The translations under genes were made by a program, and so were the position numbers. Below the pieces are notes generated by a model. That model was not told the DNA's origin. It saw only the letters and a list, made by a program, of their open reading frames with translations, and searched no databases. A stretch of 64,000 bases of DNA from Dryococelus australis (taxonomy: Eukaryota > Arthropoda > Insecta > Phasmatodea > Phasmatidae), in contig CM056997.1 of assembly GCA_029891345.1 (NCBI GenBank), positions 221,216,172 through 221,280,171 of the forward strand, read 5' to 3'. Position 1 is the first letter of the stretch. Each line of letters opens with the position of its first letter. Of this stretch, positions 3,443 to 61,240 are shown piece after piece.

Positions 3443-3547
3443 CACGTGCCTAGAACAGTTACGATGTTACAAATTTTTGTTATCATACAAAGACTGAAAA
3501 AAAGTGAAATTAATTCAATATTGAAGAGACTGCTGTCCCATTTGATA

Positions 3548-3775
3548 CTTCTCTATCCACTTGGCCACTGCGAACCCACTTAACGTAGTTCTATCCACTG
3601 AGCCAATAAGGCCCCACTTGGATATGCTCTATCCATTGAGCCACTAAGGCCCCACTTGGAATCACTCTATCCACTGAGCCACTGCGGCCCCATTTGATAT
3701 TGCTCTATCCACTTGGCCACTGCGGCCCCAGTTGGAATCGTTCTATCCACTGAGTCATTGTGGCCCCAATTGGAA
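3548..3775 (-). repeat. degenerate tandem motif resembling a pol III A-box
   Basis: About six repeats, each around 37-40 bp, of '(c/t)tctatccactgagccac' followed by '(t/g)(a/c)ggccccacttgga'. On the minus strand each reads 'gtggctcagtggatagag', which closely matches the tRNA A-box plus D-arm consensus. Copy 2 of family A has only two or three such motifs. Confidence 0.75.
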
Positions 3776-4090
3776 ATGAACTTAACATTGAAGTGAGACA
3801 TTCAAAGCAAACAAAAATGACATTCCATTACCTTGATATCTCTATGCAATAATCTCTATACATTAATACAAAACTTTGATATATGAAAAAAGTAATTAAG
3901 AAATTAGTTTTTAGGGTAAAAAGTAATGATTGCGTAATATGATCTTGCTGAAATTCGAACTTGATCTGTAGTTGACTCTGAGAATTAGCTCTGCGAAATT
4001 CGAAGATTTTCTGTTGAGTTTCAAGGGACTTAGAAGTAGTAATACAGACAGACATACAGAGATTGTCCTATTATATAATAGGATGTTATG

Positions 4091-4848: not shown

Positions 4849-5416
4849 AACTAGGGGCCCAGCCCGCAACTTTTTTTAGTATTGTCACGTGCCTAGAATA
4901 TTTACCATGTTACAAATTTCGGTTATCATACAAAAATTGAGAAAAACAAAACCTTTTGTATAGACATAAGTAGGTAATAATTAAATTATGTGAAATTAGC
5001 TCAACATCGAAGTGACTGCGGCCACATTTGATATTTCTCTATCCACTGGCCCACTGGGCCACCCAATTAACGTATTTATATCCACTGAGCCACTAAGGCC
5101 CCACATGGAAATTAACTCAACTTTGAAGTAAGACCTTTAAAATAAACAAAAATTATATTCCATTACCTTCATATCTCTATGCAATAATTTCTAGCATTCA
5201 TACAAAACTTTAATGTAGGAAAAAAGTAATTAAAAATGAGTTTTTAGGGTAAAAGGTAATGATTGCGTAATCTGATCTTGCTAAAATTCGAACTTAAATT
5301 GTATTAGACCCTGAGGATTGGCTCTGCAAAATTTGAAGAACTTCTGTCGAGTTTCAAGGGACTTAGAAATATTAAAGACGGACAGACAGACAGAGATTGT
5401 TTCCTTATGTAGTAGG
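4849..5416 (+). repeat. family A dispersed repeat, copy 2
   Basis: This is homologous to 3392-4085 in the same orientation, starting 'ctaggggcccagcccgcaa' and ending 'gacagacagagattgtttcc' plus 'tagtaggg'. It lacks the long poly-T and most of the A-box-like expansion. The two copies lie about 760 bp apart. Confidence 0.8.
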
Positions 5417-7197: not shown

Positions 7198-10100
7198 TTT
7201 CACTTTTCTACTTGGCCTATTATTACTTCCTTGTTCTTTACAGCTTACTTCCCCCCAAGTAACACAGAAGTGTACAGTTTTCACATTTCTACTTGGCCTA
7301 TTGTTACTTCCTTGTTCTTTACAGCTTGCTTCCCTCCAAGTAACACACCAGTGTACAGTTTCACATTTCTACTTGACCTATTGTTACTTCCTTGTTCTTT
7401 ACAGCTTAAATCTCCCCAAGTAACACACCAGTGTACAGTTTCACATTTCTACTTGGCCTATTGTTACTTCCTTGTTCTTTACAGCTTACTTCCCCCCAAG
7501 TAACACACCAGTGTACAGTTTCACATTTCTACTTGGCCTAGTTGTTACTTCCTTGTTCTTTACAGCTTACTTCCCCCAAGTAACACACCAGTGTACAGTT
7601 TCACATTTCTATACTTTGGCTATTGTTCTCTCCTTGTTCTTTACCAGCCTATACTTCCCTCTCCCACACCCCCAAGTAACACACCAGTGTACAGTTTCAC
7701 ATTTTCTACTTGGCCTATTGTTACTTCCTTGTTCTTTACAGCTTACTTCCCCCCCCCCAAGAACACACCAGTGAACAGTTTCACATTTCTACTTGGCCTA
7801 TTGTTACTTCCTTGTTCTTTACAGCTTACTTCCCCCTACCCAAGTAACACACCAGTGTACAGTTTCACATTTCTACTTGGCCTATTGTTACTTCCTTGTT
7901 CTTTACAGCTTACTTCCCCCCCAAGTAACACACCAGTATACAGTTTCACATATCTACTTGGCCTATTGTTACTTCCTTGTTCTTTACAGCTTACTTCCCC
8001 CCCGCCCCCAAAGTAACACACCAGTGTACAGTTTCACATTTCTACTTGGCCTATTGTTACTTCCTTGTTCTTTACAGCTTACTTCCCCCCAAGTAACACA
8101 CCAGTGTACAGTTTCACATTTCTACTTGGCCTATTGTTACTTCCTTGTTCTTTACAGCTTACTTCCCCCCGTCCCCCAAGTAACACACCAGTGTACAGTT
8201 TCACATTTCTACTTGGCCTAGTGTTACTTCCTTTTCTTTACAGCTTACTTCCACCCCCCCCCCAAGTAACACACCAGTGTACAGTTTCACTTTCTACTTG
8301 GCCTATTGTTACTTCCTTGTTCTTTACAGCTTACTTCCCCCCAAGTAACACACCAGTGTACAGTTTCACATTTCTACTTGGCTATTGTTACTTCCTTGTT
8401 CTTTACAGCTTACTTCCCCCCAAGTAACACACCAGTGTACAGTTTCACATTTCTACTTGGCCTATTGTTACTTCCTTGTTCTTTACAGCTTAAATCCCCC
8501 CAAGTAACACACCAGTGTACAGTTTCACATTTCTACTTGGCCTATTGTTCTTACTTACTTCCTTGTTCTTTACAGCTTACTTCCCCCCAAGTAACACACC
8601 AGTGTACAGTTTCACATTTCTACTTGGCCTAGTGTTACTTCCTTGTTCTTTACAGTTTATTTCCCCCCAAGTAACACACCAGTGTACAGTTTCACATTTC
8701 TACTTGGCCTATTGTTACTTCCTTGTTCTTTACAGCTTATATCCCCCCAAGTAACACACCAGTGTACAGTTTCACATTTCTACTTGGCCTATTGTTACTT
8801 CCTTGTTCTTTACAGCTTACTTTCCCCCCAAGTAACACACCAGTGTACAGTTTCACATTTCTACTTGGCCTATTGTTACTTCCTTGTTTTTACAGCTTGC
8901 TTCCCCCCAAGTAACACACCAGTGTACAGTTTTCACATTTCTATCTTGGCCTATGTTACTTCCTTGTTCTTTACAGTTTATTTCCCCCCAAGTAACACAC
9001 CAGTGTACAGTTTCACATTACTACTTGGCCTATTGTTACTTCCTTGTTCTTTACAGCTTACTTTCCCCCCCACCATCCCACTAATGTATACCACACCATA
9101 ACACCAGTGTACAGTTTCACTTTTCTACTTGGCCTATTGTTACTTCCTTGTTCTTTACAGCTTACTTCCCCCCCCCAAGGAACACACCAGTGTACAGTTT
9201 CACATTTCTACTTGGCCTATTGTTACTTCCTTGTTCTTTACAGCTTACTTCCCCCCAAGTAACACACCAGTATACAGTTTCACATATCTACTTGGCCTAT
9301 TGTTACTTCCTTGTTCTTTACAGCTTACTTCCCCCCCCCCCAAGTAACACACCAGTGTACAGTTTCACATTTCTACTTGGCCTATTGTTACTTCCTTGTT
9401 CTTTACAGCTTACTTCCCCCACCAAGTAACACACCAGTGTACAGTTTCACATTTCTACTTGGCCTATTGTTACTTCCTTGTTCTTTACAGCTTACTTCCC
9501 CCCCCCCAAGTAACACACCAGTGTACAGTTTCACATTTCTACTTGGCCTAGTGTTACTTCCTTTTTCTTTACAGCTTACTTCCCCCCCCCCCCCCAAGTA
9601 ACACACCAGTGTACAGTTTCACTTTTCTACTTGGCCTATTGTTACTTCCTTGTTCTTTACAGCTTACTTCCCCCCAAGTAACACACCAGTGTACAGTTTC
9701 ACATTTCTACTTGGCCTATTGTTACTTCCTTGTTCTTTACAGCTTACTTCCCCCCAAGTAACACACCAGTGTACAGTTTCACATTTCTACTTGGCCTATT
9801 GTTACTTCCTTGTTCTTTACAGCTTGCTTCCCCCCAAGTAACACACCAGTGTACAGTTTCACATTTCTACTTGGCCTATTGTTACTTCCTTGTTCTTTAC
9901 AGCTTAAATCCCCCCAAGTAACACACCAGTGTACAGTTTCACATTTCTACTTGGCCTATTGTTACTTCCTTGTTCTTTACAGCTTAAATCCCCCCAAGTA
10001 ACACACCAGTGTACAGTTTCACTTTTCTACTTGGCCTATTGTTACTTCCTTGTTCTTTACAGCTTACTTCCCCCCAAGTAACACACCAGTGTACAGTTTC

Positions 10101-50519: not shown

Positions 50520-50785
50520 TCAACCAGGGTGAGTGTTGAAGAGAGCTTTAGGCGGCTCTTAATATCGAGATCTTGAGAGTTGATGTTGGTGAAGCGAGGT
50601 GACAATGGAGCAGCGCCGGAATACCAGGACGAGGGAAACGGGAGATCCCTGAGAAAACCCGCAGACAAGTGGCATGGTCAGGCAAGATTCCCACGTGCGA
50701 AAATCCGGGAGCGACCCCACAGTGTAAGAAACCCAGTTCGCATTCGTGGGAGGCAAGCGCTCTGATCACTACGACAGCGCGACCC
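50520..50785 (-). mobile_element. SINE-1 copy at the start of TR5
   Basis: The minus-strand head 'gggtcgcgctgtcgtagtga', 'tcagagcgcttgcctcccac' is the A-box side, 'gcgaactgggtttcttac' a decayed B-box, 'gggttttctcagggatctcc' the body and 'ggcgctgctccattgtcacc' the 3' part. Its 5' end (50748-50785) is the sequence that reappears in every TR5 unit. Confidence 0.85.
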
Positions 50786-51716
50786 ATTGCAGGTAGCTCC
50801 GACTTGCGCACGCAAGTGTTTCATGTGTAAAGTTAGGTTAGTTCAGTAGCGAGGCCTTTCCCTACCCAGCTTCCTGCCATGAAGTGTGAGGCAAGCGCTC
50901 CGGTCACTACGACACCGCGACCCATTGCAGGTAGCTCCGACTTGCGCACGCAAGTGTTTCATGTGTAAAGTTAGGTTAGTTCAGTAGCGAGGCCTTTCCC
51001 TACCCAGCTTCCTGCCATGAAGTGTGAGGCAAGCGCTCTGGTCACTACGACACCGCGACCCATTGCAGGTAGCTCCGACTTGCGCACGCAAGTGTTTCAT
51101 GTGTAATAGGTTAGTTCAGTAGCGAGGCCTTTCCCTACCCAGCTTCCTACCATGAAGTGTGAGGCAAGCGCTCTGGTCACTACGACACCGTACCCATTGC
51201 AGGTAGCTCCGACTTGCGCACGCAAGTGTTTCATGTGTAATAGGTTAGTTCAGTAGCGAGGCCTTTCCCTACCCAGCTTCCTACCATGAAGTGTGAGGCA
51301 AGCGCTCTGGTAACTACGACACCGCGAAACATTGCAGGTAGCTCCGACTTGCGCACGCAGGTGTTTCATGTGTAAAGTTAGGTTAGTTCAGTAGCGAGGC
51401 CTTTCCCTACCCAGCTTCCTACCATGAAGTGTGAGGCAAGAGCTCCGGTCACTACGACACCGTACCCATTGCAGGTAGCTCCGAATTGCGCACGCAAGTG
51501 TTTCATGTGTAAAGTTAGGTTAGTTCAGTAGTGAGGCCTTTCCCTACCCAGCTTCCTGCCATGAAGTGTGAGGCAAGCGCTCTGGTCACTACGACACCGT
51601 ACCCATTGCAGGTAGCTCCGACTTGCGCACGCAGGTGTTTCATGTGTAAAGTTAGGTTAGTTCAGTAGTGAGGCCTTTCCCCACCCAGCTTCCTACCACG
51701 AAGTGTGAGGCAAGTG
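50748..51716. repeat. TR5 tandem array, 134-138-bp unit x 7
   Basis: Unit landmarks: 'gaggcaagcgctctggtcac', 'tacgacaccgcgaccc', 'attgcaggtagctccgactt', 'gcgcacgcaagtgtttcatg', 'gcgaggcctttccctaccca', 'gcttcctgccatgaagtgt'. 'attgcagg' starts at 50786, 50924, 51062, 51196, 51331, 51468 and 51604. The 134-bp units lack 4 bp ('gtaatagg' for 'gtaaagttagg'). The first 37 bp of each unit equal the 5' end of the adjacent SINE-1. Confidence 0.96.
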
Positions 51717-52240
51717 GTCACAGTTGACCATGAGTAGGTAGTGCAGTGTCGACCAGTGCTGTACAACGTGAAGTAGAAGCAACGTTGTCCACGTCAGTGT
51801 TAATTGTGCATACAAATGGTATAATAATACACAAAGTGAATACAAGTAGATGTTGAGGAGGACTTTGAAAAGTGGTCACAGTTGACCATGAGTAGGTAGT
51901 GCAGTGTCGACCAGTGCTGTACAACGTAAAGTAGAAGCAACTTTGTCCACGTCAGTGTTAATTGTGCATACAAATGGTATAATAATACACAAAGTGAATA
52001 CAAGTAGATGTTGAGGAGGACTTTGAAAAGTGGTCACAGTTGACCATGAGTAGGTAGTGCAGTGTCGACCAGTGCTGTACAACGTAAAGTATAAGCAACT
52101 TTGTCCACGTCAGTGTTAATTGTGCATACAAATGGTATAATAATACACAAAGTGAATACAAGAAGATGTTGAGGAGGACATTGAAAAGTGGTCATAGTTG
52201 ACCATGAGTAGGTAGTGCAGTGTTGACCAGTGCTGTACTA
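51715..52240. repeat. TR6 tandem array, 158-bp unit x 3.3
   Basis: 'tggtca(c/t)agttgaccatgag' starts at 51715, 51873, 52031 and 52189, giving a 158-bp period. The stretch 'gaatacaagtagatgttgag', 'gaggactttgaaaagtggtc' matches the family M terminus at 19840-19895 ('gcatacaagtagatcttaag', 'caggtctttcaaaagtgctc'). It joins TR5 directly. Confidence 0.95.
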
Positions 52241-60068: not shown

Positions 60069-61047
60069 ACGTCTCACTTGATGCGCATGGCAGTGTCGCC
60101 CTTCTAGGCCTCTAACGTGGAGTAAGGCGGGAGTAAAGAACACTTACTGCTATACTTACAAACGTACCGAGTCACATCCTTGATGACGGCAGTCCGTCGC
60201 CAGTCGTCACAGTGACGCGGAGTAAGTAAATACGTCTCACTTGATGCGCATGGCAGTGTCGCCCTTCTCGGCCTCTAACGTGGAGTAAGGCGGGAGTAAA
60301 GAACACTTACTGCTATACTTACAAACGTACCGAGTCACATCCTTGATGACGGCAGTCCGTCGCCAGTCGTCACAGTGACGCGTAGTAAGTAAATACGTCT
60401 CACTTGATGCGCATGGCAGTGTCGCCCTTCTCGGCCTCTAACGTGGAGTAAGGCGGGAGTAAAGAACACTTACTGCTATACTTACAAACGTACCGAGTCA
60501 CATCCTTGATGACGGCAGTCCGTCGCCAGTCGTCACAGTGACGCGGAGTAAGTAAATACGTCTCACTTGATGCGCATGGCAGTGTCGCCCTTCCAGGCCT
60601 CTAACGTGGAGTAAGGCGGGAGTAAAGAACACTTACTGCTATACTTACAAACGTACCGAGTCACATCCTTGATGACGGCAGTCCGTCGCCAGTCGTCACA
60701 GTGACGCGGAGTAAGTAAATACGTCTCACTTGATGCGCATGGCAGTGTCGCCCTTCTCGGCCTCTAACGTGGAGTAAGGCGGGAGTAAAGAACACTTACT
60801 GCTATACTTACAAACGTACCGAGTCACATCCTTGATGACGGCAGTCCGTCGCCAGTCGTCACAGTGACGCGGAGTAAGTAAGTACGTCTCACTTGATGCG
60901 CATGGCAGTGTCGCCCTTCCAGGCCTCTAACGTGGAGTAAGGCGGGAGTAAAGAACACTTACTGCTATACTTACAAACGTACCGAGTCACATCCTTGATG
61001 ACGGCAGTCCGTCGCCAGTCGTCACAGTGACGCGGAGTAAGTAAATA
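60069..61047. repeat. TR9 tandem array, 163-bp unit x 6
   Basis: 'acgtctcacttgatgcgcat' starts at 60069, 60232, 60395, 60558, 60721 and 60884. Copies are nearly identical (ctagg/ctcgg/ccagg, cgcgg/cgtag). The left part of the unit is family B sequence and the right end ('acagtgacgcggagtaagta') resembles the start of family C at 5505. Confidence 0.97.
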
Positions 61048-61240
61048 CATACAGACGAGATGGCGTCGCGGTTCCATTGATGTGGGCGTACCCATTCACT
61101 GATTGGCTACGCGAGTCTCTGTGCCTGACTGGCTACCGCGCTCTGCGAAGTGTATCCTTATACTGGCTGGGCTACTGAGTTGCAATTACGTCACCAGGCG
61201 CTCATACACGAACGATGTACTGATATATTGCGTGCCGAAT
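61048..61240 (+). repeat. family C dispersed repeat, right of TR9
   Basis: 'cgcggttccattgatgtggg', 'cgtacccattcactgattgg', 'ctacgcgagtctctgtgcct', 'gactggctaccgcgctctgc', then a decayed middle ('cgaacgatgtactgatatat'). Confidence 0.7.

Follow-up and report, generated by a model that had tools for sequence, protein, structure and literature searches.

We report that TR5, a short tandem array in Dryococelus australis, in all likelihood (we put the probability at about 0.92) is a tandem duplication of the 5' junction of an old SINE-1 copy that was amplified and shuffled by unequal exchange and is promoterless. The analysis concerned 64,000 nucleotides of contig CM056997.1 (GCA_029891345.1), here referred to as the window. 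Specifically, the architecture of TR5, the descent of its unit heads from the adjoining SINE-1 copy, the restriction of its flank-derived part to this locus and the fact that its units do not fit one tree are direct observations. The array is probably without function. TR5 is an unusually clear view of the birth of an array, but not a new kind of thing; what is new here is that its plan recurs at no fewer than four further loci of this genome, though SINE 5'-junction arrays may already have been described, the literature covered having included few subscription journals.

TRF placed TR5 at positions 50746-51714 with a period of 138, 7.1 copies and 95% matches. Cutting at GAGGCAAG gave seven whole units with lengths of 138, 138, 135, 134, 138, 137 and 137 bp (range 134-138 bp), which together occupy 50750-51706 and are followed by an 8 bp remainder at 51707-51714 (Table 1). 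Read on the minus strand, a unit consists of approximately 102 bp of flank and then approximately 36 bp of SINE 5' end. In unit 1 the approximately 102 bp part is the 5' flank of the adjoining SINE, in agreement with the first-pass annotation, which had taken the remaining roughly 100 bp of the unit to be flanking DNA, and the edge of the SINE itself forms the head of that unit. The array is real within the span 50520..51716 first assigned to it, but the end of that span lies 2 bp beyond the TRF end and 10 bp beyond the last whole unit, and the bases from 51712 rightward belong to a separate 158-bp array outside TR5.

Table 1. Coordinates and properties of the TR5 units, the neighbouring elements and the four opened arrays elsewhere in the genome
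Feature	Position	Strand	Remarks
SINE-1 copy, tRNA-type head and conserved body	50537..50785	-	5' end at 50785; first 36 bp = unit 1 head
TR5 unit 1	50750..50887	-	SINE 5' end 50750-50785 and 5' flank 50786-50887
TR5 unit 2	50888..51025	-	
TR5 unit 3	51026..51160	-	3-bp deletion in common with unit 4
TR5 unit 4	51161..51294	-	3-bp deletion as in unit 3; 1-bp deletion as in units 6 and 7
TR5 unit 5	51295..51432	-	
TR5 unit 6	51433..51569	-	1-bp deletion as in units 4 and 7
TR5 unit 7	51570..51706	-	1-bp deletion as in units 4 and 6
End piece of broken eighth TR5 unit, 8 bp	51707..51714	-	GAGGCAAG; AAG overlap with next array
Adjoining 158-bp array	51712..52238	+	3.3 copies; unit = part of a dispersed repeat and other DNA
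C11 array (L087)			71-bp unit, 9 copies; 39 bp SINE head; edge SINE-1 86% to consensus
C7 array (L089)			82-bp unit, 5.1 copies; 52 bp SINE head; edge SINE-1 81%
C8 array (L090)	C8:7128200-7129400 and on to at least 7141163		77-bp unit; ≈44 bp SINE head; edge SINE-1 78%
C3 array (L091)	C3:141048600-141049600		≈104 bp unit; 55 bp SINE head; edge SINE-1 86%

The SINE at the edge of TR5 matches positions 2-248 of the SINE-1 consensus at 50785-50537 on the minus strand with 83% identity. Genome-wide, 5,386 first-look candidates for this SINE were obtained, and among the 40 that were scored all but the copy itself had 77-82% identity. In an alignment of 33 copies the 5' end of the edge SINE was in common with the other copies while the upstream DNA was unrelated, and the TR5 flank is therefore not a 5' extension of the SINE family. 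For the edge SINE no target-site duplication above shuffles was detected (351 of 500 shuffles did no worse). Rfam gave no matches at the gathering score, no tRNA genes were found in a search using the bacterial setting, and no Pfam families were detected at E-values up to 0.01 for ten of the 41 ORFs of 110 amino acids or more in the window. For one sodium-channel exon the best PDB match was a PaFPC1 chimera, an insect channel, with an E-value of 1.2e-7 and low similarity.

The 36 bp at 50785-50750 and the plain unit head differ at 2 of 36 positions; hence the approximately 37 bp which had been said to equal the SINE 5' end are present in each unit but nearly equal it. The head match is not due to chance, since two of the unit heads came back with E-values of 2.7e-7 and 6.2e-6 when the whole genome was queried with an 86-bp piece of the SINE. 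The plain unit head and the edge SINE each differ from the family consensus at nine positions, and eight of these changes are common to both, while the best of the 33 other copies has three. Because the unit head has eight of the nine changes of this SINE copy, we conclude that the units descend from it. One locus outside the 33 (L054) has five of the eight changes (positions 22, 26, 27, 28 and 31) and another (L047) has part of this five-change set. As the changes at 22, 26-28 and 31 may mark a subfamily, the firm evidence is positions 4, 12 and 20, and no other copy that was examined has the combination seen at these positions in the edge SINE and the units. Moreover, the edge SINE lies at an edit distance of 2 from the unit head, and 58 further SINE loci that were fetched, 54 of them distinct, lie at 5 to 15, which speaks against the possibility, anticipated at the first pass, that the unit head might be no closer to this SINE than to other copies. 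A pattern scan of the genome allowing up to 3 mismatches gave four places, all at the TR5 locus (the SINE itself and units 2, 3 and 5), the 1-bp deletion of units 4, 6 and 7 being one that such a scan does not tolerate. At head position 21 the edge SINE has the commonest base (30 of 33 copies) and the plain unit head has another, a pattern that fits the direction from SINE to array. Among the TR5 units, the SINE-derived head varies threefold relative to the flank (mean 7.4% vs 2.4%).

When one unit was searched against the genome (3.415 Gb, 646 contigs) seven matches were obtained, all of them TR5 units and all from one first-look candidate. The search for other TR5 loci that had been recommended thus places the unit at one locus only, with the qualification that very common words are skipped. 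The TR5 flank gave no match in the other loci fetched. The name "satellite" is a strong one for a 0.97 kb array at one place; classical satellites form long heterochromatic arrays of many copies.

The first-pass annotation also placed a pol III A-box remnant in every unit. Scored against the A-box and B-box motifs, the SINE-1 consensus has an A-box at 11-21 and a B-box at 54-64, with 0+0 mismatches. The edge SINE has 2+3 mismatches at best, the second box at another place, and the best A+B box pair of the TR5 array has 2+4. A doubled TR5 unit has 2+5 box mismatches (7 in all), which is no better than shuffles. Within the units the A-box has 2-3 mismatches, while the best B-box match on either strand has 4, and TTTT is absent from the minus strand of unit 2. 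A decayed A-box is therefore what is left of the remnant, and pol III in every unit is unsupported because the A-box is decayed and the units are without a B-box; TR5 has neither a promoter nor the properly spaced A-box and B-box of a type 2 pol III transcription unit. To judge from these sequences, the SINE promoter was probably dead before the array formed.

With respect to timing, the SINE body, compared with the consensus over 213 columns, shows 31 mismatches as well as 2 gap positions (15.5%), and between TR5 units the mean difference is 3.8% and the largest 7.3%. These values (15.5% vs 3.8%) represent rough ages, since the consensus was built from copies chosen for their likeness to the edge SINE and exchange between units lowers the differences among them. 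Eight of the nine head changes predate the split between SINE and units (exact 95% interval 0.52-1.00), or fewer if some mark a subfamily. We read the duplication as a late event at an old SINE insertion, and the original proposal, a tandem duplication of the SINE/flank junction after insertion, is thus upheld by the common head changes with the correction that it came late. Among pairs of informative sites, 11 of 21 are incompatible with one tree, including the pair formed by the two indels (units 3 and 4 vs units 4, 6 and 7), and this points to exchange between units.

Together, these data suggest the following route. An old SINE-1 copy occupied 50537-50785, its 5' end pointing to the right, and a segment across its 5' junction (approximately 36 bp of head and 102 bp of flank) would have been duplicated head to tail through a rearrangement at the DNA level. 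The first step might have been replication slippage or end-joining with little homology, after which unequal exchange would have given the seven units and shuffled the variants among them. The first breakpoint of TR5 can no longer be read because the outer native end has been lost into the 158-bp array. The 8-bp microhomology (GAGGCAAG) was considered as the breakpoint and dropped, since what follows on the right is the 158-bp array and the native flank no longer continues there. The border between the two arrays looks like a later break, given that the left end of the 158-bp array is cut inside a dispersed repeat. A hairpin was likewise rejected as the cause: the flank has the motif ACTTGCG-CA-CGCAAGT, but the single-stranded fold of unit 2 was no better than that of shuffles (z +1.64; 194 of 200 shuffles equally good).

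The exact head 16-mer TTAGACTACTCGCCTC is present at 7,349 places in the genome (3,643 + 3,706). Pairs of this 16-mer gave one match at a spacing of 95-125, eight matches in three places at 65-95, and 235 matches at 125-155, of which the first ones were listed; reversed control patterns gave 0 matches at each of the three spacings. Four arrays were opened (C11, C7, C8 and C3; Table 1), a set that excludes the single pair C3:368228926 and the unlisted matches at 125-155. In all four a near-complete SINE-1 is continuous with the last unit, and in all four the unit takes in DNA just 5' of the SINE. Arrays resembling TR5 with no SINE at the edge, which would have spoken against the first proposal, were thus absent from this set. 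The C8 array extends over at least 12 kb (listed matches from 7,129,074 to 7,141,163), i.e. it is a satellite-sized array with the parent SINE at one edge and can be described as the plan of TR5 grown to at least 12 kb. The C3 array sits between two head-to-head SINE-1 copies and has pieces of both heads in each unit; its unit also includes an intact B-box, contributed by the opposing SINE and lying on that element's strand, and an A-box-like site that is 2 mismatches off.

The upstream parts of the TR5, C7 and C8 units had no match among the other fetched sequences, the genome-wide search being that of TR5's part alone. For C11 there was one weak match among the fetched sequences (L066, 81% over 31 bp, E-value 0.005), and in C3 most of the upstream part is head sequence from the second SINE. 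Since the upstream DNA differs from locus to locus, the arrays look like separate births. The unit heads have the changes of their own edge SINE in 5/5 cases for C7, 5/7 for C3, 2/6 for C8 and 1/3 for C11; because few edge changes are shared in C11 and C8, descent from the edge SINE rests on position in these two. At the three readable loci the sequence shared at the outer joint, as judged by eye, is approximately 2 bp in C7, 0 in C11 and 2 in C3.

Of the 27 TRF rows for the window, 12 arrays were kept, with short simple repeats and overlapping rows omitted, and these cover 14,361 of the 64,000 bases. In the 158-bp unit next to TR5 a dispersed repeat occupies positions ≈76-158 and 1-25 (275 first-look candidates, 40 scored). 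Another array, at 3537-3778, is composed of tRNA-like heads of approximately 38 bp (such as GGGGCCGCAGTGGCTCAGTGGATAGAG) and resembles the stretch 5015-5112; it is perhaps a second array in the window that was derived from a tRNA-type element. The array at 60069-61048 has a 163-bp unit of which 46 bp are matched in another fetched locus (L056), and this array may therefore contain a piece of a dispersed repeat.

The SINE may have had a part in causing the duplication or may have been caught in it by chance. The pol III-type head, being open, transcribed or fork-stalling, could make the SINE 5' junction a preferred birthplace of arrays, which we regard as rather unlikely. All five arrays span the 5' junction, but the chance of this alone is 0.20, and while the head 16-mer gave three loci at the 65-95 spacing against one for a body 16-mer, whose word is approximately twice as common in the fetched sequences, the corresponding p is 0.12, or 0.62 at equal copy numbers. 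Furthermore, 4 of the 12 window arrays hold a piece found elsewhere vs 95 of 300 random 140-bp stretches, so that arrays are not enriched in dispersed repeats, and among 54 other SINE loci an array was present on the SINE in none, within 100 bp in two and somewhere in 14. A related suggestion, to which we give the same low credence, is that an array arises or persists if its cut falls between the A-box and the B-box, leaving half a promoter in each head. The unit matches to the own edge SINE end at 40 (TR5), 39 (C11), 52 (C7), 44 (C8) and 55 (C3), and a cut at 37-53 in all four head-16-mer loci has a chance of 0.004 under a uniform model. Against this, C3 is an imperfect fit, with a match that reaches 55, just inside the B-box, and an intact opposite-strand B-box in its unit; it fits promoter splitting only insofar as each of the two opposing heads lacks one box. 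Without C3 the chance figure becomes approximately 0.02 (product of three values), and the test was post hoc with the unlisted arrays uncounted.

The other alternatives concern the order of events. SINE integration finishes at the 5' end, and repeats could have been made in its course through template switching while the second strand was being synthesised there. All five arrays are located at that end, and the unit heads of C11 and C8 are 2 changes from the consensus. We consider this very unlikely, as the TR5 units carry the changes at 4, 12 and 20 of this particular SINE, a combination absent from the other copies examined, show much less divergence among themselves than separates the SINE from its family, and are paralleled by the C7 units with all five edge changes. 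Least probable, to the point of being almost negligible, is an older array with a tRNA-like motif into which the SINE landed or which it resembles by chance. Such heads are common here, as in the 38-bp array at 3537-3778, but the SINE 5' end coincides with the head/flank border of the unit, and the unit head has eight changes in common with this copy. Late duplication of the SINE 5' junction remains our preferred reading. It can be compared with the double insertion of a TE, which McGurk and Barbash reportedly described in 2018 as a satellite seed: in both a mobile element provides the start of the array, but for TR5 a single element together with its flank is enough, and a second insertion is not required.

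The closest known counterparts to TR5 and its sister arrays are the SINE-derived satellites of squamates (sSats), which have the same edge plan; these are described as tandem units from a portion of a SINE in which the terminal unit runs into the SINE terminus, with short loci of variable units beside long ones and with some units having 14 or 44 nt of unexplained origin (PMC10702118). TR5 agrees in part with regard to the unit, 36 of its 138 bp being SINE and the other 102 bp flank. The continuation of the terminal unit to the SINE terminus is seen in TR5 unit 1 (50785-50537) as well as in C11, C7, C8 and C3, and TR5 has seven units where an sSat has at least four middle units. By contrast, sSats have one unit type at several loci with homogenisation between loci, whereas TR5 is a single locus (common words skipped in the search). 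The sSat unit is mostly SINE and one type occurs at many loci, while here SINE head makes up 26-63% of the unit and the rest is upstream DNA that differs per locus (in C3 largely a second SINE head); the part of the head retained in snake sSat units is that with the B-box, whereas TR5 and its sisters keep the A-box part (PMC10702118). A preference of sSats for subtelomeric regions is also described (PMC10702118). TR5 lies 6.9 Mb from the end of its 228 Mb contig and C8 7.1 Mb from the start, with C7, C11 and C3 further inside.

Two further systems bear some likeness to TR5. The monomer of PcH-Sat of the limpet Patella caerulea includes a piece of Nin-SINE, and as in TR5 a SINE piece without pol III boxes is thus part of a repeated unit; unlike TR5, it is the 3' SINE part, and PcH-Sat is pericentromeric and present in several species, the text seen reporting no parent SINE at an edge (PMC11121367). 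Hy/Pol III and Xenopus Satellite 1, the latter with a tRNA-related region, have a tRNA-type, SINE-like head in the unit as TR5 does, but are named repeat families while TR5 is one array (PMC9659126); the tRNA origin of Hy/Pol III has been doubted (PMC10702118).

How satellite arrays begin is difficult to investigate, as the starting point is no longer preserved in old ones. Here five places show the parent element, its flank and the product next to one another, the divergence of the SINE orders the events at TR5, and rates, breakpoints and any role of the pol III-type head become countable in one genome. On the unlikely reading that arrays depend on promoter splitting, the SINE-1 5' junction would be a recurrent birthplace of arrays, with five births in hand, each beside its parent, the smallest of seven or fewer units and the largest of 12 kb or more.
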